A stretch of 64,000 nt of DNA. Source: Anniella stebbinsi (taxonomy: Eukaryota; Chordata; Lepidosauria; Squamata; Anniellidae). The stretch is taken from assembly GCA_029215795.1 (NCBI GenBank), contig JARDYH010000003.1, forward strand, positions 62,844,609 to 62,908,608, written 5' to 3'. The notes beneath the pieces were generated by a model that made no database searches, was not told where the DNA came from, and was given only the letters and a program-made list of their open reading frames with translations. The first letter of the stretch is position 1. Each line of letters starts with the position of its first letter. This document shows, one piece after another, positions 34,201 through 59,158 of the stretch. The translations under genes and the position numbers were made by a program.

Positions 34201-35082
34201 ACACAACCCACAGTTGTTCAAGTAACAACCCACAGTTGTTACAGGAACAACTGAGATGAACAACTCATTTGCGAGTTGTTGAGGGATTCAACAACTGACA
34301 AATGTGTTGTCCGAATTGGGGCGTTGTTGAAGCAACAACCATGAGTTGTTGAGCAAGGAAAATCAGAGAGCGGAGCGGCAAGAGAGGCAGAAAGCAGGCG
34401 GCCGCTCAAGCACGCTCGCAACAGAGACCCGGCTTCGCCGCCATAGCAACCAGGACGCCCGCCTCCCCCACCAGGCAGCCGGCATGGAGCTCAACAAGGG
34501 GCCTGCTCCTGCCAGCACTTATGCAGGGTGCCCAGCCAACCACCCAAACGGACAGGGAAGAGCACCAGAACAGAGCCATGGCCAAGGGGGGGAAGGGGAG
34601 ATGGAAGAAGCAACACCTGCAGGCACCCAGGAACAGGGGGTAGCCCCCCACCCCAACAGTGAGAACAACACCCCACCCAACGTAGACCCTCTCCGCAATG
34701 CCACCTCCACCCTTGCTTCACCCAGAAATACGAGGGATGGGGAAGCGGCGCCCAGAGCTCCCCCCCCATTCGCCCAAGACGATCTGACAGCAACCAACAG
34801 CCACGTACATCCCCAAGACGCATGAAACTGCATGGCAAAGGGCGCCCATGGGCACCAGCCAGCCACCTGCAGATGTGTTGGAAAACAGGCAGAGGTATGC
34901 ACAACAATCCCAAGGACAAGAAGTGGCCCCGGCCAGCAACGACAACAACGCCTACACACGGGGCACATCCAGAGGAAGCACAACATCCCACCAGCACCCA
35001 CCACCATACAAACACATGGGATGGGGGAAAGCAGCCCTGGGCACAGACAGCCAACACCTACGAAACACACATCCGCAGACAA

Positions 35083-37220: not shown

Positions 37221-38097
37221 GGCACAGTCGTCCTACAGGTCCCTATACTCATCCACCATGGGACCATAGGGGAATGCAGTTGTAGGTTCACCCCCACCTC
37301 TATACGCGATAAGGCCCCCTCTGGCCGCTGCCTCCCTCGGGCCAGTCTAGATGCTCAAGGCTATGTCCATCGGCATGCCTATGCAACAATGTTGCACACG
37401 CTGGATGCCTTTCGTTCCCGGCCCTATCTCCCCCCATTGCAGCCAGATCCAGTTGAGATGGCAGCACCCTACAGGTCCCACAGGCACTGAGCAGGGTGCA
37501 TTGTTCGACACCGAAGGGCCCTTTGGCGTGGAGGTTAGTTACGGGGCTGCTGGGCAGGATGCAATGGTGTTGCTGTGGCCTCCGTGTCACTGATGGCGGC
37601 CCCCCCTCCTCTCCTCCCTTCTATTCTCGTCCCCCAGGGAAACTATGCGCCCTCCGCCGTGCCATCCACAGAAGGCATAGGTCCCAAAAGGCACGGCGTC
37701 TCCACGCTCTGGAGGTCGCCCTGGGAGAAGTCATACGTCGCTTAAGATGCCTGGAACGAAGCGTCCGGCGTCGCCAGCGTCCGATCCATGGCCAGCCGTA
37801 GCCTGTCCGCCAGCATGGAGGCTCACGCCCATCCCCCCTACCCGTAGAGTAGACCCGGCCTCCTGTGCCGATCCCCCCTCACGCACCCCACTCTGGCCGC
37901 TTCCTGTCACTCCCCTCTGTCTAGCAGGTGCGCTTCAGCCTAAACAAATCCTCCTGCCCTCCCATTCCCACGCTACTGTAGTTGGCGGTCCCACGTTCCT
38001 ATCCTCGCTCCACCTCCCTCCGCCCTCCTGCTCCGTCACACCCACCGCTCCTCCCATCCTGTCCGCCCCCCCCCCGGCCCAGCTGGCATTGGCGACT
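37221..38097 (+). other. Inter-gene region of the Harbinger element
   Basis: GC-rich sequence between the two Harbinger genes. Frames such as the arginine-rich one at about 37,625-37,801 (HRRHRSQKARRLHALEVALG) could be part of an N-terminal exon of the nuclease or the end of the Myb gene. I cannot decide. Confidence 0.4.
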
Positions 38098-39524
38098 ATG
38101 TCCCGGAGGGAGCTCGCAACGGCCTGCTTGCAAAGAGCGATCCAGGCGGCCACGCAGAACCACAGTGACGCCAACGAGGAGGACCTGTTTCGTGCCCGGC
38201 TGTGGCGGATAAGTGGGGCCATGCCCGTGATGCCAGTGTTTGAGACGGAGTCCTTCCACTGGTCCCTAGGAGCAACGGAGGCTGTGCCTTGTCTCCGAGC
38301 CGCCATCCTGCCCCTGGTTCATCCCCGTGGGGCACCCCCGATGATTGTGGAGCAGCTGGCCAAAGGCATGGCCAAGGGAGCCCTTCATCGCGCTTCCCCC
38401 TCTCAACGTTGGCCGAGCTACTCGCCGAGCATGAGACCGTCCATCGCTGGGTGCTCCCCCGGATGGATGCCATGTGGAATGAGATGCAGGATTGGGAGGA
38501 TTGGGACGACGAGCGCTTCCGTGGCAGCTTCTGCATGTCTCGCGCGACTTTCAAGGTGTTGATGGCCAAGGTGACTCCTGTCCTGCAGCGGGAATGTACA
38601 AATATGCGCAGAAGTATTCCAGTGTCTCGTCAGCTCAGCCTGACGCTGTACAAGCTGCTGTTCAATGTGGGCTACTTGCCACTGTCAACCGTCTTTGGAG
38701 TGGGTGTGTCTACCGCGTGCGAGATCTTCCATGAGACGGTGAGTGTGCTGAACAAGCTGTACCTGGCCGACATCATCCGGGTGGGGGACGAGAAGGAGAA
38801 CATGCATGGTTTCCATACCCTGGGCTTCCCATGGGCGGTGGGGGCGGTGGACTCTACCCATGTGTGCATCCTGGCCCCTCCTACCCATGGCGAGGAGTAC
38901 TACAACTGTAAGGATTTCTACAGCATGGTTCTGCAGGTGGTGGTAGATGACAAGGGCCGCTTCCTTGACATCTATGCAGGTGTATCTGGGCGGAGCCACG
39001 ACACAGCTGTCTTCTTGAACTCCCCCCTGGCTGCCAAGCTGGCATCGGGGCATTTCCTGAAGTCTGGCCCCGCTTGCGTGTGCGGGCATGCAGTGGGCCT
39101 GTTCCTCCTGGCCGACCAGGTGTACGCCCTGCAGCCGTGGCTGATGGCCCCATACTGCTACCCATGCACCAGCGTCCAGCGTAAATACAACTACTATCAT
39201 TGCCGTGCCCGCCTGCCTGTGGAGCGCTGGCGCTCCCTGTTCAGCTTGTTGGACTTGCAAGCCGACATCATTCCAGACGTGATGGTGTGCTGCTGCATCC
39301 TGCACAACTTCTGCGAGTCCCGTGGGGACGTGTTACTCGCCGAGCACCCCGACCTCCCCCGGGCGGTCGACGACGACGACGGCATCCCTGTGGATGGGTG
39401 GGACATCGAGCCTTTGCCGGGCCCCAAGAATCCCGTTGGGGAGCGCCACGCCCGTGTGGAGGCATTCCGGGTGCGTGAAAGCAACAGTGTCTGGATCTGG
39501 CTGCACTACCCCCACCCCGTGTGA
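38098..39524 (+). pseudogene. Harbinger DDE nuclease (transposase) gene, nearly intact
   Basis: Second gene of the element, encoding the endonuclease that cuts at the TIRs. An N-terminal part (MSRRELATACLQRAIQAAT, 38,098) is in a different frame from the main part; the switch is near 38,390 and may be an indel or an intron. The main frame, open to 39,524, contains RFRGSFCMSRATFKVL, an HTH-like SRQLSLTLYKLL region, then the DDE_Tnp_4-type core: GAVDSTHV (first Asp, 38,850-38,852), GVSGRSHDTAVF (HD pair), LLADQVYALQPWLM (third Asp box, usually G-D-x-G-Y-P) and ARLPVERW, with the Glu. Between VE and RWRSL about eight residues of the usual FG.LK segment appear missing. The C-terminus has VMVCCCILHNFCESRGD, the family's I.HN motif. 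AATAAA follows 245 bp downstream. Probably inactive or impaired. Confidence 0.85.
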
Positions 39525-42530: not shown

Positions 42531-43204
42531 TGTTCAGTCAAAATAAAGAACATAGTGCAAAAAGGTATCTAACTGATTAAGCACTCCTCCCTTATGTTAG
42601 GCTGAGTTTCTTGCACACTCGATGTTGATCACATCTAACAGTAGGGTAGGCTACAGGGGTGGCTACAGGGCTACAGGGGTGGCTGCTCGCTCACTTCAGG
42701 TGGCAACTTGCCTCAGGCCAGGCCTGATCTGGTTTGGATAATACCTGAATCATCCAAACCCATTGATGCATCTCCACCTTTGCCATCCCCAGCAATCCAC
42801 ACCTTGATGGGCTATCCACATAAGGCTGTACACTTACAGGCCTAAATCCTGGAGTTGAATCCCAGATTCCCCTCAGCAGAACGAGCAGAAGGTCCCCCAA
42901 ATGAATCAGGGCTTGAACATGGATTACCACTTAAGTGAAGCAATACACATTAACAAATAGAGAGGACTCACCATGTCACCATTAAGCCCAGAGTCTAATA
43001 TTACCTAATTGCACCACTGTATGTGTTCAGTATTTTTCATAATTAAAATTAACGACATTGTTAATTAACATTAAGTTCATTGTGATAAAGAAAAAGTGAC
43101 AGTAGCAGAAATATGTGAAACTCAGGATTTATAATCTCCTGAAATATTTCTCAGCTTTGATAAACTTGGAATCAATCTCTCCCTCTCTCTCTCTCTTATC
43201 TATT
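42531..43204. other. No recognised feature
   Basis: Contains a short (CT)n run at about 43,179-43,195. Nothing else. Confidence 0.4.
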
Positions 43205-43552
43205 TATTAAACAACTAAAAAAAAATACATTTCTCTAGGTACTTTACAACAGCGACAAGCAACAGAAGCAACAACAATAATAATATCACATAATTAACAA
43301 TATAATCAAACAGGACAACACAGCATAAAATACAATATCAGGTATAAGAGATAAAACCAAATTGAAGGGACTAGGATAAGAAAACACAATAAATCTAAAA
43401 TATTTTTGAAAATACTTTTAAAAGCCTGAGACAATGTCTTAGCTTGGTGCTGGAAAAATAGCCATGTGCATCCCAGGGGAGCTTCCTTTGGGAGAGCATT
43501 ACAGAGCTGGGGGGCCAGCATTGAAAATGTCCTGTCTCTTTTTATTATTGTT
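43205..43552 (-). mobile_element. L2-like LINE 3' end, antisense
   Basis: On the minus strand: CCAGCTCTGTAATGCTCTCC (the family's LWN.LP region) followed by CTCAGGCTTTTAAAAGTATT, an AT-rich UTR and a GTTTAATAAATAGATAAGAG tail near 43,205. The giant hAT inserted just beyond it. Confidence 0.6.
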
Positions 43553-43560
43553 ATTATTAC

Positions 43561-44820
43561 TAGGGATGTGCACTGACCCCCCGGATCGGATCGGATAGCG
43601 GATCGGAATCGGACCTGGGGGGTCGGATCGGATCGGATCGGATCGTGTGTCGGATCGGATCGGATCCGATTCCGATCCGCGGATCGGATTTTCCGATCCG
43701 GATCGGACGCCATTTTGAATGCTTTTTCCTATAGCAAATTATTGTTTTACAAAAACGCCTATAACTTTTTCATTTTTAACGACAGAAGGATGAAACTTGG
43801 GCACATTGTACACTGGTTAGGGATAGGTATCTGTGAGAAATTTCAGAAAGATTGGTGCATGCAGTTTGTGGCAATTAATTTTTTAATAAATAACATGGAA
43901 TGCCTATAACTCGGTCATTTTTAAAGTTACACACATGAAACTTTGCCACATTGTAGGTGGAACCTTGGGACCCACGTGTGTGAAATCCCAGAACCGTGGG
44001 TGCTTGCCTGGTGTGGCAATGAATTTTTGAAAAATGGGTAGTAGTGGGGTAAATGCAGTTATGCCTCCCATGTTTTTATTTTTAAAGATACAAACAGGAC
44101 ACTTCGGCACATTACAGGGAACACTTCCCTTGATATGTGTGTAAAATTTCAGACAGCTAGCTCCAGGCATGTGTTGGCAATGAATTGTTGAAAATTGGGT
44201 AGCAGTGGGGTAAAATACAGTTTTGCCTCCCATTTTTTTATTTTCAAAGATACAAACGGGAAACTTTGGCACATTGCAGGGAACACTTCACTTCAAATGT
44301 GTGTGAAATTTCCGGAAGCTAGGTGCAACATTTTAGTGGGAAACGAACGTTTATTCATGGCATTTCACATGGGATTTATGGGTTGGTTTTAAGAGCTACA
44401 AACCTCTAACTCGCTCACATGGCACAGGACCTATGCCCGCTCAAACGCTGGAAATTTAACAAACTTTGGTGCAATGCTTTAGTGGGAAAACAAAGGTTTA
44501 TGCATGGCATTTCACATGGGATTTATGGGTTGGTTTTAAGAGCTACAAACCTCTAACTCGCTCACATGGCACAGGACCTATGCCCGCTCAAACGCTGGAA
44601 ATTTAACAAACTTTGGTGCAATGCTTTAGTGGGAAAACAAAGGTTTATGCATGGCATTTCACATGGGATTTATGGGTTGGTTTTAAGAGCTACAAACCTC
44701 TAACTCGCTCACATGGCACAGGACCTATGCCCGCTCAAACGCTGGAAATTTAACAAACTTTGGTGCAATGCTTTAGTGGGAAAACAAAGGTTAAACTTTA
44801 TTATTTTAAACCTTCAGGAA
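43561..44820 (+). repeat. Left long terminal inverted repeat of the hAT
   Basis: First about 150 bp are GGATCGGATC-type words. Then four diverged about 150-160 bp monomers follow, each with CCTATAACT/CCTCCCATTTTTTTATTTT, a GAAACTTTGGCACATTGCAG phrase and GTGTGAAATTTC; then three near-identical 147-bp units. It ends TTTAAACCTTCAGGAA. Confidence 0.9.
44340..44793 (+). repeat. 147-bp tandem units, three copies (left arm)
   Basis: CATTTCACATGGGATTTATG begins at 44,361, 44,508 and 44,655, a period of exactly 147 bp. The units are almost identical. Confidence 0.9.
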
Positions 44821-45153
44821 GGGGACATTGCCTGCCTGGTGTGGATTGGTAATGAGGGAAGAAAGTTTCACTTATTCATTTGTAAAATGTAAAGTGATTG
44901 TAAATTGCTTTAGGGACCCATACATTTACATGACAAGACAGGTGTTGGTTGCAGGAATGCTACCAAATGCACTAGTAGCTAATCCCAGGTAATAGCTATT
45001 CAGATCCTAGCTAATAGCTATTATTCAGATCCTAGCCTGGGAAGGGATCTTGCAGGATAAGTGATTGTTCTTTTCTTGTGTACTATGTAATTCTAAACCA
45101 GAAGGCTGCTTTGATGTAGAGCCAATCCACATGGTCTCTTGCAGCACCTAGTA
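44821..45153. other. Non-coding spacer of the hAT, left side
   Basis: Unique sequence between the left terminal repeat and the terminal exon of the module array, with a small direct repeat (TAGCTAATAGCTATT/ATTCAGATCCTAG) at about 44,977-45,037. Confidence 0.5.
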
Positions 45154-46235
45154 TTATTTATTTCTCCTTCCACAGCAGAATCTGGAAGGCGGGCAGGCAG
45201 GCTGGCATTTAATGGGCAAAGTCCAACAGCGGCATTGGGGACTGGGTGACATTCTCCTTGAGGGCGAATGCCAAGTCCCATGGCTTGTGCGAGGAGGGCG
45301 GCTTGCTCTCTTTGCAGGAAGGATCTGGAAGGCGGCAGGCGGCATCAGCAGCGGGCGGGCAGGCTGGCATTTAATGGGCAAAGTCCAACAGCGGCATTGG
45401 GGACTGGGTGACATTCTCCTTGAGGGCGAATGCCAAGTCCCATGGCTTGTGCGAGGAGGGCGGCTTGCTCTCTTTGCAGGAAGGATCTGGGAGGCGGCAG
45501 GCGGCATCAGCAGCGGGCGGGCAGGCTGGCATTTAATGGGCAAAGTCCAACAGCGGCATTGGGGACTGGGTGACATTCTCCTTGAGGGCGAATGCCAAGT
45601 CCCATGGCTTGTGCGAGGAGGGCGGCTTGCTCTCTTTGCAGGAAGGATCTGGGAGGCGGCAGGCGGCATCAGCAGCGGGCGGGCAGGCTGGCATTTAATG
45701 GGCAAAGTCCAACAGCGGCTTTGGGGACTGGGTGACATTCTCCTTGAGGGCGAATGCCAAGTCCCATGGCTTGTGCGAGGAGGGCGGCTTGCTCTCTTTG
45801 CAGGAAGGATCTGGAAGGCGGCAGGCGGCATCAGCAGCGGGCGGGCAGGCTGGCATTTAATGGGCAAAGTCCAACAGCGGCTTTGGGGACTGGGTGACAT
45901 TCTCCTTGAGGGCGAATGCCAAGTCCCATGGCTTGTGCGAGGAGGGCGGCTTGCTCTCTTTGCAGGAAGGATCTGGGAGGCGGCAGGCGGCATCAGCAGC
46001 GGGCGGGCAGGCTGGCATTTAATGGGCAAAGTCCAACAGCGGCTTTGGGGACTGGGTGACATTCTCCTTGAGGGCGAATGCCAAGTCCCATGGCTTGTGC
46101 GAGGAGGGCGGCTTGCTCTCTTTGCAGGAAGGATCTGGAAGGCGGCAGGCGGCATCAGCAGCGGGCGGGCAGGCTGGCATTTAATGGGCAAAGTCTCTCC
46201 TTTCCCGGGCACTGTGGCAGTGAGAGTGCCATAGG
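45154..46235 (-). CDS. Terminal exon of the hAT module gene, 54-residue repeats
   Basis: Candidate last exon on the minus strand. It begins at an acceptor (pyrimidine tract, TTCTTCTTTTGCAG, then CCTATGG at 46,235) and runs open to a TAA at 45,154-45,156. The frame, with one base carried from the preceding exon, encodes an opening segment (YGTLTATVPGKGETLP), six complete 54-residue repeats and a partial seventh. The repeat contains LPIKCQPARPLLMPP, KRASRPPRTSHGTWHS and RMSPSPQSRCW; it is basic, proline- and cysteine-containing, and matches no family I recognise. Repeats vary mainly at F/S and S/C positions. The stop codon lies directly against an AATAAA signal (45,157-45,162), reading AATAAATAA. 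Coding status is inference. The plus strand is also open because the unit length is a multiple of three. Confidence 0.5.
45157..45162 (-). promoter_or_regulatory. Polyadenylation signal AATAAA, minus strand
   Basis: TTTATT on the plus strand. By eye I saw no other minus-strand AATAAA between here and the end of the transposase gene at 50,616, so transcripts from the hAT promoter might end here. Confidence 0.5.
45181..46190. repeat. 162-bp tandem repeat, six units plus a partial
   Basis: GGCATTTAATGGGCAAAGTC starts at 45,204, 45,366 and every 162 bp onward to about 46,177. Units are nearly identical (C/T in GGCATTGG/GGCTTTGG; AAGGC/GAGGC). Confidence 0.95.
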
Positions 46236-46440
46236 CTGCAAAAGAAGAAGGGGGGGGAAAAAGAATGAATATTAGTTGACCACTTCAACACAACCAGCTC
46301 CCTTCCACCCAGGATTGCCCTTCCTGAGTGCCCACGCCAAAGCAGGCACACGGGGCTGCCTGCTCACTCGGAAGTTAGCAGGCAGACAGCCAACCTTCAG
46401 TTAGGTGGAAGGTGCCCCCCCCCATTCACAGAACACTTAC

Positions 46441-46556
46441 CGTAGTCCTCCTGAGGGCGTTGTTGATAAGATGCCACTTCCAGGCGGGCAGTGACGGGCA
46501 GGTGGGCAGTCTGCATTACCGTCTCTCCTGGGCACTGTGGCAAAGAGTTCCATAGG
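46441..46556 (-). CDS. Module exon 2 (116 bp)
   Basis: Acceptor TTCTTCTTTTGCAG precedes 46,556 and donor GTAAGTGTTC follows 46,441 (minus strand). With two bases carried in, the frame reads LWNSLPQCPGETVMQTAHL to ASYQQRPQEDY without a stop and leaves one base for the terminal exon. Near-identical to exon 4. No known domain. Coding is inferred from splice signals plus openness. Confidence 0.45.
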
Positions 46557-46727
46557 CTGCAAAAGAAGAAGGGGGGGGGGAAGAATATGAGGAAAATGAT
46601 ACTTTTCCACCACTGGCTCCCTCCCACCCAAGACTGGCATGTGCCCGTCCTGAGTGCCCACGCCCCAGCAGGCACACGGGGCTGCCTGCTTGCTTACTCG
46701 TGGGTAAGCTCTCTGACAGGCTCTTAC

Positions 46728-46842
46728 CAGAGTCGTGCGGGCGACGTGAATCGATGGGCCACCTCCATGCGGCCGTGGCTGGGGCAGATGGGCAGTCTGG
46801 ATTCACGGGTACGCTTTGCGCAGTGGCGAAGAGTTCCATAGG
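46728..46842 (-). CDS. Module exon 3 (115 bp)
   Basis: Acceptor CTCCTTCTTTTGCAG, donor GTAAGAGCC. With one base carried in it reads AYGTLRHCAKRTRESRLP to RMEVAHRFTSPARL, open, leaving two bases for exon 2. Related in sequence to exon 2 (shared CCTATGGAACTCTT start), so the 115- and 116-bp modules derive from one another. Confidence 0.45.
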
Positions 46843-47059
46843 CTGCAAAAGAAGGAGGGGGGGGGGAAAGAATTAACATGAGATAAATCATACTTTTCCA
46901 CCATTGGCTCCCTCTCACCCAGGACTGGCATCTGCCCGGTCCTGAGTGCCCACGCCCCAGTAGGCACACGGGGCTGCCTGCTCACTCGGAAGTTAGCAGG
47001 CAGACAGCCAACCTTCAGTTAGGTGGAAGGTGCCCCCCCCCCATTCACAGAACACTTAC

Positions 47060-47175
47060 CGTAGTCCTCCTGAGGGCGTTGTTGATAAGATGCCACTTCC
47101 AGGCGGGCAGTGACGGGCAGGTGGGCAGTCTGCATTACCGTCTCTCCTGGGCACTGTGGCAAAGAGTTCCATAGG
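47060..47175 (-). CDS. Module exon 4 (116 bp)
   Basis: Duplicate of exon 2 with the same acceptor and donor (GTAAGTGTTC) and the same open frame. Confidence 0.45.
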
Positions 47176-47345
47176 CTGCAAAAGAAGAAGGGGGGGGGAA
47201 GAATATGAGGAAAATGATACTTTTCCACCACTGGCTCCCTCCCACCCAAGACTGGCATGTGCCCGTCCTGAGTGCCCACGCCCCAGCAGGCACACGGGGC
47301 TGCCTGCTTGCTTACTCGTGGGTAAGCTCTCTGACAGGCTCTTAC

Positions 47346-47460
47346 CAGAGTCGTGCGGGCGACGTGAATCGATGGGCCACCTCCATGCGGCCGTGGCTGG
47401 GGCAGATGGGCAGTCTGGATTCACGGGTACGCTTTGCGCAGTGGCGAAGAGTTCCATAGG
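47346..47460 (-). CDS. Module exon 5 (115 bp)
   Basis: Duplicate of exon 3 with identical splice signals and open frame. Confidence 0.45.
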
Positions 47461-47675
47461 CTGCAAAAGAAGGAGGGGGGGGGAAAGAATTAACATGAGA
47501 TAAATCATACTTTTCCACCATTGGCTCCCTCTCACCCAGGACTGGCATCTGCCCGGTCCTGAGTGCCCACGCCCCAGTAGGCACACGGGGCTGCCTGCTC
47601 ACTCGGAAGTTAGCAGGCAGACAGCCAACCTTCAGTTAGGTGGAAGGTGCCCCCCCCCATTCACAGAACACTTAC

Positions 47676-47878
47676 CATAGTCCTGAGGGCGTTGAGGACT
47701 CGGTGAGATTCTCCTGGAGGACCCCTAGTCCCATGGCTTGTGCAAGAAAGGCGGCTGGCCCGCCTCGCAGGAACGATCTGGAAGGCGGCAGGCGGCATCA
47801 GCAGCGGGCGGGCAGGCTGGCATGTAATGGGCAAAGTCTCTCCTTTCCCGGGCACTGTGGCAGTGAGAGTGCCATAGG
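47676..47878 (-). CDS. Module exon 6 (203 bp)
   Basis: Acceptor TCTTCTTTTGCAG, donor GTAAGTGTTC. It combines the start of the terminal exon (AYGTLTATVPGKGETLP) with part of one 54-residue repeat and then an ending like exon 2. In the phase needed by exon 5 it contains a TAG near its end. In another phase it is open but then exon 4 would stop, so it may be skipped or dead. Confidence 0.35.
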
Positions 47879-48199
47879 CTGCAAAAGAAGAGGAGGGGGA
47901 TAATGAATATTACATAAATACTTTTATACTGCAAAAGAAGAAAGGAAAATAAATAAAGATTTGTATTAATTAATACATGCAAGTCCTAGTAACTAGTCTC
48001 CCACCGGCACACTTCTCTGGTTTGTGATGCAATCCTCTTTCTCCTGCACCCCTCCCTTTCTAAATCACTCTTCTGAGCCCATTGTTAGAGGGATTGGCTA
48101 TCCTTTTGTGTCTGGCAGGACACAGCTTACCGGATCATTAGAGAATCACCATTTCTTTTGTCCTTGGGTTATTCATTCACTCCTAATAGCACCCTACGT

Positions 48200-48370
48200 T
48201 AGGCTGACCAGATCAAATCCAGGTCAGGGTTCCTAACTTCAGCAGTTGTAGAGAAAAGGGAATTTCTGCCAGTGTCATTTGTATGGAATTAGTTCCTGCT
48301 GAGATTCCCTCTTCATCACAACAGTTAAAGGTGCAGGGGCCCTGCCTTCTTTTCTATATGGCCACTCTGC
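48200..48370. mobile_element. Half copy of the inverted-dimer MITE (copy D)
   Basis: Starts TAGGCTGACCAGATC and follows the left half of copies A-C to just past the palindrome centre (CTATATGGCCACTCTGCC), then stops. It sits in the intron next to the donor of module exon 7, so it entered the hAT after the module array formed. Confidence 0.7.
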
Positions 48371-48382
48371 CTGCACTCTTAC

Positions 48383-48497
48383 CTGAGTCGTAGGGGCGAC
48401 GTGAATCGAGGGGCCACCTCCATGCGGCCGTGGCTGGGGCAGATGGGCAGTCTGGATTCACGGGTGCGCTTTGCGCAGTGGCGAAGAGTTCCATAGG
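48383..48497 (-). CDS. Module exon 7 (115 bp)
   Basis: Acceptor CTCCTTCTTTTGCAG, donor GTAAGAGTG (after GACTCAG). Same module type as exons 3 and 5 with a few substitutions; open with one base carried in. No function recognised. Confidence 0.4.
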
Positions 48498-48718
48498 CTG
48501 CAAAAGAAGGAGGGGGGGGGGAAAAGAATTAACATGAGATAAATCATACTTTTCCACCATTGGCTCCCTCTCACCCAGGACTGGCATCTGCCCGGTCCTG
48601 AGTGCCCACGCCCCAGTAGGCACACGGGGCTGCCTGCTTGCTTACTCGGAAGTAAGATCTCACACTGCCCCACTTCTGGACACTCTCAGGTGTCCCTGCG
48701 TTGACTGCACACACTTAC

Positions 48719-48780
48719 CTTATTCGTGCGGCCGATGTGGATCGGAGGACTCCAGTGGCACATAGGCTCCTCCAGGCAAA
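48719..48780 (-). other. Probable first or upstream module exon ending in a strong donor
   Basis: On the minus strand GCCGCACGAATAAG is followed by GTAAGTGTGTG, a near-consensus donor at 48,718-48,714. The exon body would be the short-repeat array to the right. I found no acceptor, so its start is unknown, and the phase needed by exon 7 has a TAA next to the donor. Confidence 0.35.
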
Positions 48781-49437
48781 GTCACATTGGCACAGGGTCC
48801 TCCAGGCAAAGTCACAGTTTGGCACAGCTCCCTCCAGGCAAAGTCACATTGGCACAGGGTCCTCCAGGCAAAGTCACAGTTTGGCACAGCTCCCTCCAGG
48901 CAAAGTCCCAGTGGCACAGGCTCCTCCAGGCAAAGTCACAGTTTGGCACAGCTCCCTCCAGGCAAAGTCACATTGGCACAGGGTCCTCCAGGCAAAGTCA
49001 CAGTTTGGCACAGCTCCCTCCAGGCAAAGTCACATTGGCACAGGGTCCTCCAGGCAAAGTCACAGTTTGGCACAGCTCCCTCCAGGCAAAGTCCCAGTGG
49101 CACAGGCTCCTCCAGGCAAAGTCACATTGGCACAGGCTCCTCCAGGCAAAGTCACAGTTTGGCACAGCTCCCTCCAGGCAAAGTCACATTGGCACAGGGT
49201 CCTCCAGGCAAAGTCACAGTTTGGCACAGCTCCCTCCAGGCAAAGTCACATTGGCACAGGGTCCTCCAGGCAAAGTCACAGTTTGGCACAGCTCCCTCCA
49301 GGCAAAGTCCCAGTTTGGCACAGCTCCCTCCAGGCAAAGTCCCAGTTTGGCACAGCTCCCTCCAGGCAAAGTCCCAGTGGCAGAGGCAAAGTCCCAGTGG
49401 CAGAGGCAAAGTCCCACTGGCAGAGGCAAAGTCACAG
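48757..49437. repeat. Short tandem repeat array, about 31/33-bp alternating units
   Basis: Alternating CCTCCAGGCAAAGTCACATT + GGCACAGGGT and CCTCCAGGCAAAGTCACAGT + TTGGCACAGCTC units, about 20 in total, ending with shorter GGCAGAGGCAAAGTCCCAGT units. Long frames on both strands come from the repetition. Confidence 0.95.
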
Positions 49438-49439
49438 CT

Positions 49440-50035
49440 GCATGGGCACCTCCAGGCAGGCAGGCGGGCGGGCAGGCAGAGGCGGGCATGATGCCAGGCG
49501 CTTGCACATTGCACAAGTAAGCAATAGAACCGTGAGACCAGCCCACGCATTCCGGCTACTTCACAATGGCGGCAACCTAGCAGGCGGGCAGGCGGGCAGG
49601 CAGGCAGGCAGGCAGAGGCAGAGGCAGAGGCGGGCATGATGCCAGGCGCTTGCACATTGCACAAGTAAGCAATAGAACCGTGAGACCAGCCCACGCATTC
49701 CGGCTACTTCACAATGGCGGCAACCTAGCAGGCGGGCAGGCGGGCAGGCAGGCAGGCAGGCAGAGGCAGAGGCAGAGGCGGGCATGATGCCAGGCGCTTG
49801 CACATTGCACAAGTAAGCAATAGAACCGTGAGACCAGCCCACGCATTCCGGCTACTTCACAATGGCGGCAACCTAGCAGGCGGGCAGGCAGGCAGGCAGA
49901 GGCAGAGGCAGAGGCGGGCATGATGCCAGGCGCTTGCGCATTGCACAAGTAAGCAATAGAACCGTGAGACCAGCCCACGCATTCCGGCTACTTCACAATG
50001 GCGGCAACCTAGCAGGCGGGCAGGCGGGCAGGCAG
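49440..50035. repeat. 148-bp GC-rich tandem repeat, four units
   Basis: GGGCATGATGCCAGGCGCTT begins near 49,484, 49,632, 49,780 and 49,917. Each unit includes CACAATGGCGGCAACCTAGC and a variable (GGCAGGC)n/(GGCAGA)n run. The last unit gap is shorter (137 bp), from loss of GGCA repeats. Confidence 0.95.
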
Positions 50036-50615
50036 TTTTTTAAATCATATAGCCAAAATAAACACAACACACAGTGACAGCCCTGCAAGGCTGCCACATA
50101 AGTCCAAAAGACACAGTCAGAAACAGTGTGGGATGCTGCTTGTCATCCACTCAATGTAGGAGCCTGGAAGAGGAATCCTATCGCGTCCTTCGTTCATAGT
50201 CAGAGAGGTGCATGCGTTCCTTGGCGATAAAATTAAGCCTTCTTCTTATCCAAAGTTCTCATGAGCCTCTGACGTGGTCTTACAAGAAGAAACGCCCATG
50301 GAAGTGTGGGACCTTACAGAAGGCCTGGAGGGAGCCATCGGAGTCCAATTTCAGAGGCACACGTGCAAGCACATTGGTTCAAGTCAAACAACATAGAATG
50401 TGTGAGATGCTTGTGCATCCCCTCAATGTAAGAGGCTAGGAGAAGAAACTAGATCCCTTCGGGATCCATCGTTCAGAGTTGAGTTACTGAGCTGTAAACA
50501 ACACAGCCAGTAAATTAAAGTAAAGAAAATTAATTAACCGAAAATAAGAATTAAAAAATCAAGGGCCTGCCGGTGCCTGCCCAAAGGTGTGGGATGGATG
50601 GGGGGTGCCTGCCAA
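50036..50615 (-). other. Region downstream of the hAT transposase
   Basis: AT-rich unique sequence, no frame of note. No minus-strand AATAAA was seen between it and the transposase stop. Confidence 0.5.
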
Positions 50616-53147
50616 TTACTCCCCCGCGGGCATGAGGGTGGGGTATCCCAGCAGGGGCAGATTGACCTTGAGGAAGACCAGCTGCTCCACAATCTCAGCG
50701 TCCAAGCGAGAGCGGTGGGGTGTGACCACGTCGCCCGCCATGGAAAACACCCGCTCGCTTGGAACGCTGGACGGTGGGCAGCTGATTCTGTCCATGGCCA
50801 CCCGCGCCAGATCAGGCCACATCTGGCGCCGAGATGACCAGTAGGCCAGGGGTTCGATGGAGCCGTCCTCCATCTGCTCCGCCAGGTAACGCTGCACTGC
50901 TGCTGCAGCGTCATCCTGGCGGCGGCTGGGTTGAGTGCCTCTATGCCCAACCGCAGCCTGCAAAGCCTTGTCCCAAAACCCCTGGCCTGTCCCCCTGCTG
51001 GGTGTGGTGGTGCTGGTGCCGCTGCTGCTGGTGGTGCTCAGCGGACTTAGCGCCTGGGCTTCGGTGGGCTCCTCCTCTGCCTGCCCAATCCTGGCATCCC
51101 GGGCCGCCCGAACGTCCGTCACCAGCATTTCCACCCAACCTGCCCGGGAAGTCTGCCCACATAACCCATCCTTGATGCGCGGGTCGCACATGGTGGCCAA
51201 CATGTACTGCCTCTCGTTGTAGAGAGGCTGGACCCGGCGGGATAGGCTTTCCCTCAGCCTCGTCACCACTTCCCGCACCTCTGGCAGGAAGCGCCTGCCG
51301 GTGACGGCATCCCCGGCCTCCAGAAACTCGCCCATCTGATTCTGGAGATGCCTGGCCACGGGGAGCACCTGGCTGAGAAGGGCAGTGCTGCTGCTCAGGG
51401 TCTCGGTGGCCTCAAGGAACGGCTTGAGGACCACCAGAAGCTGGGACATGGCCTCCCACTGCTGCCTGGACAGTGGGGCCTGGATGCCAATGTCCCCGAC
51501 CCTGAACATCTCGTGGACAACACGCTGTTGCTCCACCATACGCTCGAGCATGTGGTAGGTGGAGTTCCAACGTGTTGCCACGTCCTGCACTAGCCGGTGC
51601 TGCGGAAGTCCCAGCTCCTGCTGCTTCTCCCGCAGCAACCGACTGCCCTTCACGCTGTGGTGGAAATGCCCAGCCACCTTCCTGCAGCTCTCTAGGAGAT
51701 TACGGATTTGGGGAGGGAGAGGGGCCTTGCTGCCTCCAAGGCCATCCCTGACGACCAGGTTGAAGACGTGCGCGATGCAGCGGATGCCCTCAAATCCGCC
51801 ATCGCGCACCGCCTTCAGCATATTGGCTCCCCCGTCCGTGACCATGTAACCGCGGGTGTGCTGGTGCCCGCCCAGCCACCCTGCCACCATGCGGTTCATG
51901 GCCTCCGTAATCTCCTCCGCCGTGTGGGACTGGTCCATGACTGCGGTATGAAGGAGGGCCCAGCGGCAGCCCTCCTTCCCAGTCCCAGAAGTCCTGGGTG
52001 CTTCCTGCCCTGAGGCTCCCCACCAGTGAGCCGTCAGGGACAGGTAAGCGTGCACTCCTCCTTCGCTGGACCAGATGTCCGAAGTGAAGTGCACCTTCTG
52101 TGCCTCTGCCTGGCACAGACGACCCAGAACTAACTCCCTGCATGCCTGGTACAGGGAGGGCACCACACGCCTGCTCAGGGTGGTGCGACACGGCGGCTTG
52201 TAGTATGGAACCACAAGAGCCATCAGCCTCTTGAAGCCTGCGTTCTCGACGAGGCTGAATGGCTGGTCATCCAACGCCACCATCTCACCGATGCAATTGG
52301 TGATCTGGTTGGGCGCTGGAAAACGCCACCTTGTGGCTCCATACTTCCCCCACCCCATCTCTTCCATGGTGGCCTGGCGAAGCCTCTTGGGGATGGGAGG
52401 TCGAGAGCTGGCAGAAGTTGCAGGAGCCTTCTGCTTGCCCTTGCCGCTAGCACCAGTCTGCTGCGAGGTGCCCGCCTCGGTCCCAAGCAAAACAGACTGG
52501 TGGTGCCTCTGCATGTGGCGGGTGAGGTTCGTGGTGGTGAAGTGGCCTGGCATTTTTCCCCTGCTCACTGACATCTTGCAGTGGCGACAGACAGCAAAGC
52601 GGGAATCCACTGCCACCTCAAAGTGGTCCCACACCTTGCTTGCCTGTCGCTTCTGGGGTGACACAGACGGCCTGCCGGCGCCTTCGCTCTGTGGTGTCAC
52701 CTCAGGAGCAAGGGAATGAGTGGAAGAGAGGACGGATTGTGGAGAGTAAGTCTCTGGTGCTGCCTGCTCTTCCTCTTGCCCCACATCAGAGTCCTCCTTC
52801 TCACTCTGAACCTCGCTGACTTCCACAAGATCTGGGAAAAGATCAGTCAGCGGGTTCACAGGCTCACCCACCAAAGAAGGAGCTGGATAATATAGTGCTC
52901 CTTCTTCATGCCCACTGCTGCTCCCAGCACCTGCCTCATGTTGCTGAAAGAGTGCCCTGCAGGCACTACTTTGAGTTGCCTCTGCCTGCTTCTGCTGCCC
53001 CAGTGGAGAACGCCTCAGTTTAACTGGGGGTGTGGAAGTAGGCTGCCTGCTGCTGGTCCCAGCAGCAGCAGCAGCAGCGCCATGCCCAGAGCGGCCTCTC
53101 CCAAATGCTGCCTTGGGAGCACCCCCCCTTTGAGTGCCACGCTTCAT
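50616..53147 (-). CDS. hAT transposase, BED finger type, apparently intact
   Basis: An 843-residue single-exon frame. It is the enzyme that excises the element and produces the 8-bp duplication. Domains in order: low-complexity N-terminus (poly-Ala 24-29); a BED zinc finger at about 170-217 (KVWDHFEVAVDSRFAVCRHC, then H211 and H215/H216) for DNA binding; an RNase H-like catalytic core with D357 in HFTSDIWSSEGGVHAY, D438 in YMVTDGGANMLKAV and E798 in PSSVPSERVFSMAGDVV; the CIAHVFNLVVRDGL and DVATRWNSTYHML motifs typical of hAT; and the C-terminal dimerisation region ending RLDAEIVEQLVFLKVNLPLL. No stop or frameshift, length as expected, and all three catalytic acids present. The ATG at 53,147 opens the frame with MKRGTQRGGAPK. 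Its upstream promoter and position between the long inverted repeats fit an autonomous element. It resembles ZBED-type proteins, which are domesticated hAT transposases, but its setting marks it as a transposon gene. Confidence 0.93.
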   Translation of the reverse strand: MKRGTQRGGAPKAAFGRGRSGHGAAAAAAGTSSRQPTSTPPVKLRRSPLGQQKQAEATQSSACRALFQQHEAGAGSSSGHEEGALYYPAPSLVGEPVNPLTDLFPDLVEVSEVQSEKEDSDVGQEEEQAAPETYSPQSVLSSTHSLAPEVTPQSEGAGRPSVSPQKRQASKVWDHFEVAVDSRFAVCRHCKMSVSRGKMPGHFTTTNLTRHMQRHHQSVLLGTEAGTSQQTGASGKGKQKAPATSASSRPPIPKRLRQATMEEMGWGKYGATRWRFPAPNQITNCIGEMVALDDQPFSLVENAGFKRLMALVVPYYKPPCRTTLSRRVVPSLYQACRELVLGRLCQAEAQKVHFTSDIWSSEGGVHAYLSLTAHWWGASGQEAPRTSGTGKEGCRWALLHTAVMDQSHTAEEITEAMNRMVAGWLGGHQHTRGYMVTDGGANMLKAVRDGGFEGIRCIAHVFNLVVRDGLGGSKAPLPPQIRNLLESCRKVAGHFHHSVKGSRLLREKQQELGLPQHRLVQDVATRWNSTYHMLERMVEQQRVVHEMFRVGDIGIQAPLSRQQWEAMSQLLVVLKPFLEATETLSSSTALLSQVLPVARHLQNQMGEFLEAGDAVTGRRFLPEVREVVTRLRESLSRRVQPLYNERQYMLATMCDPRIKDGLCGQTSRAGWVEMLVTDVRAARDARIGQAEEEPTEAQALSPLSTTSSSGTSTTTPSRGTGQGFWDKALQAAVGHRGTQPSRRQDDAAAAVQRYLAEQMEDGSIEPLAYWSSRRQMWPDLARVAMDRISCPPSSVPSERVFSMAGDVVTPHRSRLDAEIVEQLVFLKVNLPLLGYPTLMPAGE

Positions 53148-53199
53148 TTTATTTTTATTATTATTTATTTTTGTGTAAGTGTGTGCTTTGCTGACTTTT

Positions 53200-53305
53200 T
53201 TTGTGTTTGTAGCAGCAGGCTACACAGCCCAGCAACACACACTCACTCACAAGCGCGCACACACACACACACACACAGAGAAAGAGAGAGAGAGAGAGAG
53301 AGGAT
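53200..53305. repeat. (CA)n and (GA)n microsatellite in the transposase 5' leader
   Basis: ACACACACACACACAC at about 53,258-53,277 followed by GAGAGAGAGAGAGAGAG to 53,302. Confidence 0.9.
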
Positions 53306-53610
53306 AGAAATATTTTTTTATTATTTTTTTGGGTTTTTTTCAGAAAGCGAAAGTAGAACAAACAAACACACTCACTGCAAAGACAAACTGAACTCACAGA
53401 CAAACAAACGTGCTATCTAAGAAAGGAAAGGCAAGAGAGAAAGGAAAGCCAAGAGAGAGAACAAGAAAAGCTGAAGTAAAAGATCAGAAACTCCTCAAAA
53501 CCACCTCCAAATGCAATCAAATCAATACAGTCTCTCCAACACAGCTCCAAAACACTCCCTAATCTCCTCCACGTTCAACCCACAAAGAGCCAGAAGGGCA
53601 GGGCTGAGAG

Positions 53611-53675
53611 AATATATACTGGTGCCCTCCTCCAGCATTGCGATTGGAGGCTGAAGAAAGTCTTCACAGGATTGG
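53611..53675 (-). promoter_or_regulatory. Candidate CCAAT/TATA promoter of the hAT
   Basis: On the minus strand CCAAT (53,643-53,647) lies about 28 bp upstream of AGTATATATT (53,611-53,620), and a second CCAAT is at 53,671-53,675. The transposase ATG is about 460 bp downstream. The region is inside the right terminal repeat boundary. Confidence 0.5.
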
Positions 53676-53757
53676 GTGATTCAGTCATGTATTCTAAAGC
53701 ACAATTGGTGGATCAAGCTGTCAAACACACACACACAAACACAGCCTCCCCCTCCCT

Positions 53758-55183
53758 TTCCTGAAGGTTTAAAATAATAAAGTTTAACCTTTGTTTTCCC
53801 ACTAAAGCATTGCACCAAAGTTTGTTAAATTTCCAGCGTTTGAGCGGGCATAGGTCCTGTGCCATGTGAGCGAGTTAGAGGTTTGTAGCTCTTAAAACCA
53901 ACCCATAAATCCCATGTGAAATGCCATGCATAAACCTTTGTTTTCCCACTAAAGCATTGCACCAAAGTTTGTTAAATTTCCAGCGTTTGAGCGGGCATAG
54001 GTCCTGTGCCATGTGAGCGAGTTAGAGGTTTGTAGCTCTTAAAACCAACCCATAAATCCCATGTGAAATGCCATGCATAAACCTTTGTTTTCCCACTAAA
54101 GCATTGCACCAAAGTTTGTTAAATTTCCAGCGTTTGAGCGGGCATAGGTCCTGTGCCATGTGAGCGAGTTAGAGGTTTGTAGCTCTTAAAACCAACCCAT
54201 AAATCCCATGTGAAATGCCATGCATAAACCTTTGTTTTCCCACTAAAGCATTGCACCAAAGTTTGTTAAATTTCCAGCGTTTGAGCGGGCATAGGTCCTG
54301 TGCCATGTGAGCGAGTTAGAGGTTTGTAGCTCTTAAAACCAACCCATAAATCCCATGTGAAATGCCATGAATAAACGTTCGTTTCCCACTAAAATGTTGC
54401 ACCTAGCTTCCGGAAATTTCACACACATTTGAAGTGAAGTGTTCCCTGCAATGTGCCAAAGTTTCCCGTTTGTATCTTTGAAAATAAAAAAATGGGAGGC
54501 AAAACTGTATTTTACCCCACTGCTACCCAATTTTCAACAATTCATTGCCAACACATGCCTGGAGCTAGCTGTCTGAAATTTTACACACATATCAAGGGAA
54601 GTGTTCCCTGTAATGTGCCGAAGTGTCCTGTTTGTATCTTTAAAAATAAAAACATGGGAGGCATAACTGCATTTACCCCACTACTACCCATTTTTCAAAA
54701 ATTCATTGCCACACCAGGCAAGCACCCACGGTTCTGGGATTTCACACACGTGGGTCCCAAGGTTCCACCTACAATGTGGCAAAGTTTCATATGTGTAACT
54801 TTAAAAATGACCGAGTTATAGGCATTCCATGTTATTTATTAAAAAATTAATTGCCACAAACTGCATGCACCAATCTTTCTGAAATTTCTCACAGATACCT
54901 ATCCCTAACCAGTGTACAATGTGCCCAAGTTTCATCCTTCTGTCGTTAAAAATGAAAAAGTTATAGGCGTTTTTGTAAAACAACAATACTTTGCTATGGG
55001 AAAAACGCATTTAAAATGGCGTCCGATCCGCCGATCCGATCCGATCCGGATCGGACCTCGCCGGATCGGATCGGATCGGATCGGATGGTGTATCGGATCG
55101 GATCGGATCGGATCGGATTTTCCGATTTTTGGGGCGGATCGGATTCGGATCGTGGATCGGATCCGATCCGATGCACACCCCTA
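53758..55183 (-). repeat. Right long terminal inverted repeat of the hAT
   Basis: Reverse complement of 43,561-44,820 with the same order of GGATCGGATC words, diverged monomers and 147-bp units, but one extra 147-bp unit. Confidence 0.9.
53780..54370 (-). repeat. 147-bp tandem units, four copies (right arm)
   Basis: GAAATGCCATG recurs at 53,918, 54,065, 54,212 and 54,359; the left arm has three copies. Confidence 0.9.
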
Positions 55184-55191
55184 ATTATTAC

Positions 55192-55356
55192 TGCTATTGT
55201 TGATCTTCTTGGTTTTACTGTTGGTTTTATTGCTTTAATTGATGTTTTATTGATTTTAATGTTTTATGTATTTTATTGTTGTAAGCTGACTTGTGAAAGC
55301 TTCTGCCCTGAAAGGCAGACAAGAATTTTTTAAATAAATAAATAAATAAATAAATT
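55192..55356 (+). mobile_element. LINE 3' end with AAATAAATAAAT tail
   Basis: AT-rich 3' UTR with GTAAGCTGACTTGTGAAAGC then CTTCTGCCCTGAAAGGCAGA, ending in five AAAT units, as in L2/CR1-group LINEs. Confidence 0.55.
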
Positions 55357-58300
55357 TCTTGCTAGCCTCTGAGCCTTAGAATGAGAGGACATTTGAAGGT
55401 GAGCTTCTGTGGCTATTAGCCCTTGGTAAACATATAATGGGAATGACATGCATAGTGGCTTAATAAGGGAAATCTAGGAGGGGGGGATAATATCTTATGT
55501 ATAGGGGGAACTTTTATGTATATAGTATTTTCTTTGAATATTATTTATTCTTTGTCAGATGAAGATTTAACAGGCCATACTGGCAATATCGCAATTTTAA
55601 AAAAATACCCAGTATATGATATATGAGAAAATATGAACTCTAAGATAAATATGTAAACATTGTAGCATTTATAATCAGTCTCTTCAGTACTTGTTTTGAT
55701 TGCTGCAGAGAGAACTAAGAGAGAATGCCTGACTAGCTTTTTTTTTTACTATGACAAGCTGATATTTAAATCCTTCTTAAGTTAGTTTCCCTTGGGTTTT
55801 ATCTGTTCTGCCTCATGCTTCTGCCATTTGACAGATAAGACCTAAATGAATGATACAAAAATAATAAGCTAGTTACCCTCAGAAACAGATTTAAATAAAA
55901 TATACCATAATAACTTGCAAATAATTTTATTGTGATATGAGCTCTGTGGAGAACTGCCAGTTTGATGCATTCAGACGAGAAAGATGGAGATCTCCTCATA
56001 AAATTACTATATACTACAGGGGAAAAGAAATTAAACACAGAAGTGTAGGCAGTTGCCCTAGTCCCAGAAGCATTGCGTAGAATCCTATTGCATTCAGAGA
56101 TATTGTTCCACTGTCCTCTATCAAACTGACTGTTCAGAAAGCAGACCATAGGGGATCATCTGATAGATGAAAACAACGTGAAGCTAAATTAAACAAAAAT
56201 TAAAAATGTGATAATTTTGTTTTATTTTTACCAGTTCTCTTTTACACAGAATGAATTGGAAATTGATAAAAGACTGAGTCATAGATCTCAAACATCTCTT
56301 CTAATCTGGTCCTCAGTATTAGGCATATTGGTTGGTTGCATGCAAATAGTTGTGAGATGCGGATGGGGATTGGGTAACTGCTCTTGGTATCACAAAAACA
56401 GGGAGTAACAGTAATGTCCCTCAAAGCAGTTCCTAGAGGGAATGGGCATTATTCGGACATCTCTCCCAGGTAAAAAGTTGTATGTTCCCAAACAGTCTAT
56501 TATTTTCATCTCCTTTTCAGATTTTTTTATGGTACCTTTGTGGTCTAAATAAGTAATCCTGACTCACTAGACTTTGGCTATATGAAGTGCGAACTGCAGC
56601 AACTATGGGCATACTACCTGTGAAGGTTCAATATTTCCTAAAAGAAAGAGGGCTTCAATCAATAGTGGCCATCAATAAGAATGCCATCTTCAAACTACGA
56701 AAAGATATATCCTATGAAATTCTTAAAATACATCCAGCTAAGGACCCATCAAAATCAATTATTGACCTCGCAGATTAATTTGAAGGAAGCAAAACTGCCA
56801 ACCTTCCTGAGTTTCATTTTAACAGAGCAAATAGAGCAGAAAAGAAGACGGGAAATAAACAATTTGTTTTGAGGACACTAATTGAAAAATAGGACTGGTC
56901 TTAAAAAGGAAGGATCAAATGGACATAACTCTAAGAGAACAACCCATGAAAACTCAACAATCAGGAAATGTTAAACACAATTGTGGAGGAATCAAGATAG
57001 ACATACACACATACACAATCAAAGCGTTAAAATTATACAATTAACAGTGTGATCCTATACATGGCTATTCAGCATTAAGCCCTATTGAGTTCAATGGGAC
57101 TTATTCCCAGAAGACTGCCATCTGAAACTTACTCCCAGATGAGTGTTTATAGGACTAATTTGCAGCCTAAATTAATTTATGAAATTTATCTCAAAAGCTC
57201 AGGGCAAATAATAGCATGCTAAAACAAAACCCTTACAGCTTTTAAAGCCAAGAATGTAGCCAATATTCTCCCATTTTAATTTTTGAATGAGCTGTTGCGT
57301 TCCTGAAAATTCCTAGAATTGTGAGAATATTCCTCATAGCTGCTGCTGTACTGCTTTTTTTCCTGATTACAGCTTCTTTCTTCTTCCTGAGTGCTCACGT
57401 GTGGTGATCCAAGCCAATCAGAGAACACATAATGAATGGGGTAATATTATGGTGAGGGCAATGCTTCCTGGATTAGTCACTCTGGTGAGTTCAGCACATC
57501 AGGTATCAAACAGGGGATGTGACATTGTCAGGGTGCCACATTATAATCAGTCAGATTTGGCAACTTAAGGCAACAAATACATTTCCATGTGAGGCAATAG
57601 TTCTTGCATAGGCAAAATCTTGCAAAGCAGTTACTGAAAAATTGTCAGGTGAGGCATGTATTTTTCCATGTTGCCAAAAAAGGTCCTTAAAATATTTCAT
57701 AGTGAGCTCTAGTTTTGAGACCTCACATATCTTGCATACTACCATATATCTAGCTCACTGCCCTGAAAAAAAATGTTTCTGAACCTTTCTTCTGAAAAGC
57801 GCTTCAACTTGCATTCAATGAAACACAAAACTCTATCCAAACGGAAATTGAAATCTGGGAAAGTCTCCAAAGTCAATTAGACAGTGATTTTAATTTAATT
57901 GCACTGGACTGAGCTCAAAGTTATTTATCTACAAAATCTGGTATCAATGAAAGAGATACATTCTCCATCGACTTCCCTGGAAAAGGTGGATTGTGCTTTG
58001 TTAAATGAAGTCTTTAAAGATAAACAACTTTGCTCTTCATACTGGGCACTGAATCAAATAAATGGCAGACATTTTTCTACATGTCTTGAACAGACACTTT
58101 GGAATAAACAGATAATGGCTGCAATACAAAGGATAGCAGGAATACTAAACAAATGTCTTGGGTCCAGTTTTCAAATCATTTTCTAGACAGGACTTTTGAG
58201 TAGCCAGAGCAATCCTAACCCAAAAATCTAGCTTTCCGGAGGCAGTTAGAATTAGGCAGAAGTGCCCCTCCACCAACCTCTGCTGGTGGAGAAGAACTTT

Positions 58301-58635
58301 GCCAGCAGGGGGCTTTACCACCATGGAGCGTTCCAAAGGTGTGAGGCTACTGCTGCTTGTACCCAAAGGAAGGCCCCAAAATGAGGTATTCCGGGGACGG
58401 TCTTGGATGTACTGGATTCAAGGCCCCTCCATTGCCTTAAGAGGTTCCAGGATTGGGCCTTTCACCTATGCCAACCTGGAGCTGGTGTAGGAACCTTTCC
58501 TCCTTCTGTAATCAATAGGAGGGAAACATTTTTTTTTTCAAAAAACTGCCATGATGGAAACACACAAACACACAATACACTTTCTTTGGATAAGGTGGTA
58601 GATCTACTGCATCATTCCCCACATCAGCCTCCCCA
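55357..58635. other. Mostly unrecognised; small palindrome at 57,045-57,170
   Basis: GTGATCCTATACATGGCTAT and the matching TGTTTATAGGACTAATTTGC bound a short foldback with GTTCAATGGGACTTATTCCC inside, similar to the repeat at 18,808-18,893 and to the sequence split by the Harbinger element. A possible repeat fragment begins near 58,207 (CAGAGCAATCCTAACCC). No gene was found in the rest. Confidence 0.4.
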
Positions 58636-58639
58636 ACCT

Positions 58640-58683
58640 GGATTCCCATCTCTCCCGGGCACTGTGGTGCAGAGTTCCATGGG
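58640..58683 (-). other. Start of a second exon-like module in the deleted hAT
   Basis: CTTCTTCTTTTTCAG acceptor precedes CCCATGGAACTCTGC at 58,683 (minus strand). The module is cut off by loss of the left part of the element. Confidence 0.45.
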
Positions 58684-58851
58684 CTGAAAAAGAAGAAGGG
58701 AAAGTAAAGATTAGATAACACATAATACTTTAACAACTGGCTCCCTCCCACCCCAGACTGGCATCTGGCCGGTCCTGAGTGCCCACACTCCACTGATAGC
58801 TGCACGGAGCTGCCTGCTCACTGGGAGGTCAGTTCTCTGACAGCCCCTTAC

Positions 58852-58971
58852 CTCAGTCATGCGGGCAACGTGGATCAAAGGGCCAGTTCCAGGCGGGCGG
58901 CTGTGTCTTGGGGAAGACATTCAGTTAGGATTCCAGGGTCTGCTGTGCACTGAGGCACTGAGTTCTGTAGG
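58852..58971 (-). other. Exon-like module with splice signals in the deleted hAT
   Basis: Acceptor CCCTTCTTCTATTTCAG, then CCTACAGAACTCAGTGCC, and donor GTAAGGGGC after CATGACTGAG: a 120-bp module homologous to the 115/116-bp modules of the giant element but diverged. Splice signals are kept although the internal sequence has changed. Confidence 0.5.
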
Positions 58972-59158
58972 CTGAAATAGAAGAAGGGGGGGGGAAAGGA
59001 TTTAATTACAGTGCCTGAACAACTAGCTCCCTCCCACCCATGACTGGCATCTGGCCACTCCTGAGTGCCACGCCCAAGTAGGCACCCAGGGCTGCCTGCT
59101 TACTCAGAGGTAAGCTTGCAGACAGCCCAGCTTCAATTAGGTTGCAGGTGCCCCACGT

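Follow-up and report, generated by a model that had tools for sequence, protein, structure and literature searches.

DNA transposons are mostly known as compact elements with a short transposase message, and those of the hAT group end in short terminal inverted repeats with a consensus like [C/T]AGGG. In the CACTA elements En/Spm, TnpA and TnpD are produced by alternative splicing. The Drosophila P element uses splicing as a brake on its transposase, with one regulated intron in the coding region and production of a truncated repressor (PMC7776569), and the ZBED genes are described as derived from hAT transposons (PMC3606216). Here we describe a hAT element, element 1, in a 64,000-nucleotide stretch of Anniella stebbinsi contig JARDYH010000003.1 (hereafter the window, numbered from its first base), in which the transposase frame is followed by a tandem array of exon-like modules. 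We tentatively suggest, at a probability of roughly 0.4, that the transposase transcription unit ends, on its 3' side, in this array, which would be spliced, non-coding and grown by tandem duplication.

An initial annotation of the window had described a tandem array of spliced exons within a DNA transposon and had proposed that it might be a captured host exon, an alternative 3' end for transposase transcripts or a second transposon gene. Read on the minus strand, the positions that it gave for six internal exons and for an acceptor at 46,235 were all exact, a pyrimidine tract ending in TTTGCAG precedes a CCTATGG start at all seven acceptors, and GTAAG follows each of the six internal exons. 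Three features were absent from that annotation: a seventh donor upstream of B3 (AAG/GTAAGT at 48,718, rank 2 of the 6,331 GT sites in the window), the AATAAA at 45,162, and a second acceptor, at 58,683, in a diverged relative that we call element 2. The borders delimit seven candidate GT-AG introns on one strand between 48,718 and 46,236 (221, 504, 215, 170, 217, 171, and 205 nt), 7/7 of them with good consensus, and the order of the array is complete, running from an upstream donor through ordered donor-acceptor pairs to a terminal exon with AATAAA (Table 1). By eye, the 3' end of E1 looks like that of a B exon. The intron between B3 and C also contains, at 48,198-48,368, about half of a ~320-bp palindromic repeat that is present at 10,461-10,780, 15,586-15,898, and 19,992-20,311 as well. 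No known RNA family was matched at gathering score in 43,000-60,500.

Table 1. Features of the two hAT elements and of the exon-like array (window coordinates).
Feature	Position	Strand	Description
hAT element 1	43,561-55,183	minus	11,623 bp; ends TAGGG[A/G]TGTGCA; 8-bp duplication ATTATTAC on both flanks
Candidate transposase promoter	53,611-53,675	minus	TATATATT from 53,618; CCAAT at 53,647 and 53,675 (pattern search; putative function)
Transposase frame	50,616-53,147	minus	843 aa, open; BED finger and hAT C-terminal domain (Pfam)
148-bp repeat array	49,453-50,035	minus	Between transposase and exon array
E1, candidate upstream exon	48,719-49,460	minus	Holds 62-bp repeats; 49,460 is an arbitrary cut, not a mapped 5' border
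Module B3	48,383-48,497	minus	Exon-like, 115 nt
Module C	47,676-47,878	minus	Exon-like, 203 nt; second acceptor at 47,928
Module B2	47,346-47,460	minus	Exon-like, 115 nt
Module A2	47,060-47,175	minus	Exon-like, 116 nt
Module B1	46,728-46,842	minus	Exon-like, 115 nt, same sequence as B2
Module A1	46,441-46,556	minus	Exon-like, 116 nt, same sequence as A2
T, candidate terminal exon	45,154-46,235	minus	About six 162-bp repeats; 45,154 is not a mapped cleavage site
Poly(A) signal AATAAA	45,157-45,162	minus	Followed directly by the TAA that closes the open frame of T
Element 2	58,638-60,275	minus	Diverged relative; one end found, other lost; internally deleted

The placement of these tandem modules inside a DNA transposon was borne out by the ends of element 1, its duplication and its transposase. 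The termini (TAGGGATGTGCA and, inverted, TAGGGGTGTGCA) agree with the short terminal inverted repeats of hAT elements, the inverted end regions are 97% alike over 1,183 columns, and the 8-bp target-site duplication expected of a hAT insertion is found as ATTATTAC on either side of 43,561-55,183. The transposase matches the Pfam families PF02892 (BED finger, E 3.9e-10) and PF05699 (hAT C-terminal, E 1.8e-15), and its alignment to Hermes is strong in the C-terminal part (i-E 1.2e-7), where E798 lies, and weak in the middle (i-E 0.099), where D357 and D438 lie. We take the Hermes positions matched by D357, D438, and E798 to be the catalytic residues D180, D248, and E572 and, on this assignment, count the DDE catalytic residues of hAT transposases as present in the frame.

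In a search of 5.8 billion proteins, in which the 7,995 candidates sharing most words with the transposase were scored, 32 relatives were identified, the best at 46% identity; judged by these scored candidates, the transposase has no close relative in the collection. The named relatives are ZBED4 or ZBED4-like proteins of a caecilian, lizards, a frog, and fishes, ZBED4-like being the commonest specific name, and the others are labeled BED-type, ZBED6 or ZBED6-like, MINDY-3, uncharacterized, or hypothetical. Viral contigs yielded no transposase relatives, plasmids no further copies of the element, and an exact-pattern search of viral contigs and prokaryote genome contigs no further copies either, misses that say little as these collections are not of squamates; a scan of the left end for bacterial-type promoters gave no match and is not informative. 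Within the window, a 1.1-kb element at 6,568-7,678 has ends of the same kind as element 1 and a near-perfect 8-bp duplication (AAAATCAA / ATAATCAA), and another relative of the terminal region, with one TAGGGATGTGCA end found, occurs at 23,703-24,586.

Scoring of splice sites, as the initial annotation had advised, was performed with position-weight tables and applied to both strands of the whole window. The seven array donors rank 2-45 among 6,331 GT sites and the seven array acceptors rank 13-21 among 8,438 AG sites. With a strict candidate exon defined by an acceptor of at least 12 bits and a donor of at least 8.9 bits, 50-300 nt apart (thresholds set post hoc from the array scores), the 64 kb contained seven candidates, all on the minus strand of the array and none elsewhere, two of which use the same donor, that of C. 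Thresholds of at least 10 and 8.5 bits gave 17 candidates, including nine in the array (seven minus, two plus) and one that is the module of element 2, and thresholds of at least 9 and 7.5 bits gave 41, with 14 in the array (eight minus, six plus).

The initial annotation had also proposed that splice positions be compared with their neighbors across copies, and here the donor and the acceptor parted ways. Nine modules were aligned and A1 and B1 were dropped as identical copies, so that seven rows were counted. The donor core from -1 to +5 (G/GTAAG) is invariant in 6/6 columns over the five rows that have a donor vs. 7/21 flanking columns (p = 0.0058, or 0.0046-0.0069 when the flank width is changed) and is the better conserved, whereas the acceptor CAG, invariant in 3/3 columns vs. 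16/26 flanking, is not significantly so (p = 0.27); these p-values are only a guide because the rows are related (B3 with B2, while C has an A-type donor flank). The variable donor columns are -3, -2, and +6, and the variable acceptor columns are -4 and some positions of the tract (mostly C/T). The variable columns thus sit where the splice consensus is loose, and conservation of the donor tracks that consensus.

The position of the poly(A) signals may link the array to transcripts of the transposase. Neither AATAAA nor ATTAAA occurs on the minus strand from the transposase stop to the terminal exon; the first ATTAAA, at 46,185, is within that exon, and from the stop as far as 45,100 AATAAA occurs just once, at 45,162. 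Because there is no other canonical poly(A) signal, transcripts of the transposase would most economically run into the array, and of the three options in the initial annotation, whose interpretation of the array is partly supported overall, the alternative 3' end is the best fit.

Under this reading, transcription would start at the CCAAT/TATA promoter near 53,618 (CCAAT is present at many other places in element 1), and the transcript would cross the transposase frame, with its stop at 50,616, and the repeats before ending at the AATAAA of T (45,162), the seven small introns from 48,718 to 46,236 being removed from its 3' untranslated part. By the exon-junction rule, junctions well after a stop codon expose a message to nonsense-mediated decay. 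If the array is spliced, seven exon junctions would follow the transposase stop at a distance of >50 nt, which should make the message a target of this decay; the array may then cap the dose of transposase, or permit transposase only where nonsense-mediated decay is weak. Transcription, splicing, the link between array and transposase and the effect on dose are all what we infer from sequence. A further step, which we put forward as speculation and think improbable, is that the hAT element limits itself, each added module being an extra decay-marking junction, such that array length sets the transposase dose and restricts it to decay-weak cells. We also considered splicing from the transposase into the array to give a BED-only repressor and rejected it: no minus-strand donor of at least 7.5 bits lies after the BED finger within the transposase, the sole such donor inside the frame (8.16 bits, at 52,634) being at the start of the BED finger.

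Several observations weigh against a spliced 3' end. The modules are mutual duplicates, so the recurrence of the splice signals is in part a matter of inheritance, and copies that share descent cannot be counted as independent events. Element 2 adds just a single full module, and for the acceptor taken by itself conservation does not reach significance (p = 0.14-0.34, depending on flank width). Exon candidates appear on the plus strand inside the array at the looser thresholds (two at 10/8.5 and six at 9/7.5 bits), and the 162-bp repeats carry, once per repeat and at six sites over 45,318-46,128, a plus-strand acceptor that is stronger still than those of the array (12.81 bits); GC-rich repeats can thus yield splice-like sites by accident. 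Variant hexamers follow the transposase stop (TTTAAA at 50,044, AATGAA at 48,177, AAGAAA at 48,157, AATACA at 47,967, and TATAAA at 47,928). A separate promoter might reside in the 148-bp repeats, which would uncouple the array from the transposase, and a chain of exons that is open when C is left out makes coding possible.

Some of these points would equally suit repeats that are not used at all, that is, minisatellite-like growth of a unit that happens to hold good splice-like sequence and is spliced never or only accidentally. The tandem growth at several unit sizes, the identity of A1 with A2 and of B1 with B2, the strong acceptor-like sites of the opposite strand and an acceptor core not significantly more conserved than its flanks are all consistent with this explanation, which we regard as possible, if on the unlikely side. 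What tells against it is that dinucleotide shuffles of a single module gave a strict candidate exon, at the post hoc thresholds, in at most 2/1000 cases (B2 2/1000, A2 0/1000, the module of element 2 1/1000), that donor conservation follows the splice consensus, and that the order from upstream donor to terminal exon with AATAAA is complete.

A second transcription unit, started in or upstream of the 148-bp repeats and producing a spliced long RNA or a small protein, seems to us rather unlikely. GC-rich 148-bp repeats (62% GC, CpG observed/expected 0.61) do lie just upstream, but no match to TATA[AT]A occurs from 48,719 to 50,615. With respect to a protein product, stops interrupt the full exon chain, C included, in each of the three frames, whereas the chain without C (E1-B3-B2-A2-B1-A1-T), which was chosen after looking, is stop-free for 573 aa; open chains of comparable kind arose in 0.9% (B3-B2-A2-B1-A1-T) and 2.5% (B-A-B-A-T) of 3,000 shuffles in which T was modeled as repeats of one unit. 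For the second gene envisaged in the initial annotation, the open chain is the part that speaks for coding, while the closure of the full chain speaks against it and the pattern of conservation gives no sign of it.

That pattern was examined at two depths. Relative to element 2, the B exon is identical at 83/115 positions and its upstream intron at 127/156 (p = 0.08), and the partial A exon at 36/44 and its intron at 109/130 (p = 0.82), the last 30 nt of the introns being omitted from these counts. Between B1 and B3 the exon is identical at 110/115 positions and the whole upstream intron at 189/207 (p = 0.18); the first part of this intron has diverged (49/67 identical, 18/67 differing), and its last 140 nt (46,843-46,982 and 48,498-48,638) are without substitution, with only one extra T. 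We had considered that exons change faster than introns (5/115 vs. 0/140 for B1/B3) and dropped the idea, as it held only for those last 140 intron nt. On these comparisons the exons are not more conserved than the introns and give no sign of coding. In element 2, moreover, the one full module contains stops in each of the three frames. Overall, we consider the exons probably non-coding, provided that they are used. The piece of transposase common to both elements is identical at 444/490 positions, without an excess of third-position change.

Protein searches gave the modules no convincing relative. A 361-aa concatenation of the module open frames found no protein with E <= 10 among 2,477 candidates, in a search that admits only proteins of 0.55-1.75x the query length with exact shared words, and the joined module translations matched no Pfam family and no PDB chain. 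The protein miss says little, since even for the transposase the best of the 32 relatives reaches no more than 46% identity. The minus-strand frame of T scored 24.1 bits against a cut-off of 21.1 bits for PF10297 (Hap4_Hap_bind), a motif of 17 residues; no individual stretch passed, two other Pfam matches fell below cut-off, and we take the PF10297 match as an effect of the repeats. A coding second gene is not supported, then, because the full chain is closed, the exons are not more conserved and these searches gave no convincing protein relative.

These misses bear also on the captured host exon of the initial annotation, here taken to mean that the element acquired such an exon along with the introns on either side and later multiplied the unit. 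Modules built as intron-exon-intron are, to our knowledge, unusual for hAT elements, and DNA transposons are known in general to capture host pieces, but the searches with the concatenation and the joined translations, within their limits of length and exact words, gave the captured exon no support, and we consider it very unlikely. A plus-strand gene running through the 162-bp repeats is hardly credible, as its open frame of 360 aa (45,152-46,234) and the strong acceptor in each of six repeats are set against no protein relative at E <= 1 among 7,998 candidates scored, no exon candidate at strict thresholds and only two in the array at 10/8.5 bits, and eight Pfam matches that were all under cut-off.

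Returning to the array as a spliced 3' end grown by duplication, element 2 offers a view of its history. It contains a B-like module (58,852-58,971) followed by part of an A-like one, retaining both acceptors and one donor; the two share 75 and 78% identity with B2 and A2, respectively, and 72 and 73% with the other type. The initial annotation had stated that the splice signals are kept in this relative, which is correct for AG and GTAAG and not for the longer motifs, the acceptor reading CTATTTCAG followed by CCTACAG. From the presence of a B-like and then an A-like module in element 2, the two types would seem to be older than the separation of the two elements. Judged from sequence identity, the B-plus-A pair (about 617 bp) has duplicated recently; i5-B1-i6 and i3-B2-i4 differ by three gap columns and no mismatches in 503. 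We envisage that one ancestral intron-plus-exon module would have been duplicated in tandem, giving first the A and B types and then the B-plus-A pair, and that the end exons would have expanded separately, through 62-bp repeats in E1 and 162-bp repeats in T. At 59,141-59,165 of element 2, the transposase frame beyond its BED part runs directly into the intron preceding the B-like module, seemingly as the result of an internal deletion; by eye the joint reads GTAA where the donor of element 1 would be (the aligner placed the joint otherwise), and its TAA ends the frame.

Two other features of the window may be mentioned. A frame for a DDE_Tnp_4 transposase and one of Myb/SANT-like type are located at 34,826-39,524, a combination as in PIF/Harbinger elements, and a perfect 369-bp tandem duplication is located at 32,012-32,746.

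Element 1 is like hAT elements (Ac/Hermes/ZBED4-like) in its 8-bp duplication, TAGGG..TGTGCA ends, BED finger, hAT C-terminal domain and similarity to Hermes, and unlike those described in its length of 11.6 kb and in the tandem exon-like array that follows its transposase. We know of no hAT family that has been described with such an array, and none with a tail of this kind was present among the matches listed from the open-licence literature (titles and abstract openings, with repeat libraries such as Repbase not covered). If our reading is true, the spliced and growing 3' tail would represent a novel means by which a transposon adjusts how strongly it is expressed, and the array acceptors together with the poly(A) site would form a ready-made gene trap in any host gene hit. 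The many small exons near the transposase recall the CACTA elements En/Spm, with the difference that there the exons code for a known second protein, whereas the modules here are without sign of coding. Element 1 would resemble the P element in being a DNA transposon in which splicing of the element's own transcript may govern how much transposase is made. However, the P element intron lies in the coding region and leads to a truncated repressor, while the candidate introns of element 1 come after the stop codon and the donor at 52,634 would provide no BED-only repressor.

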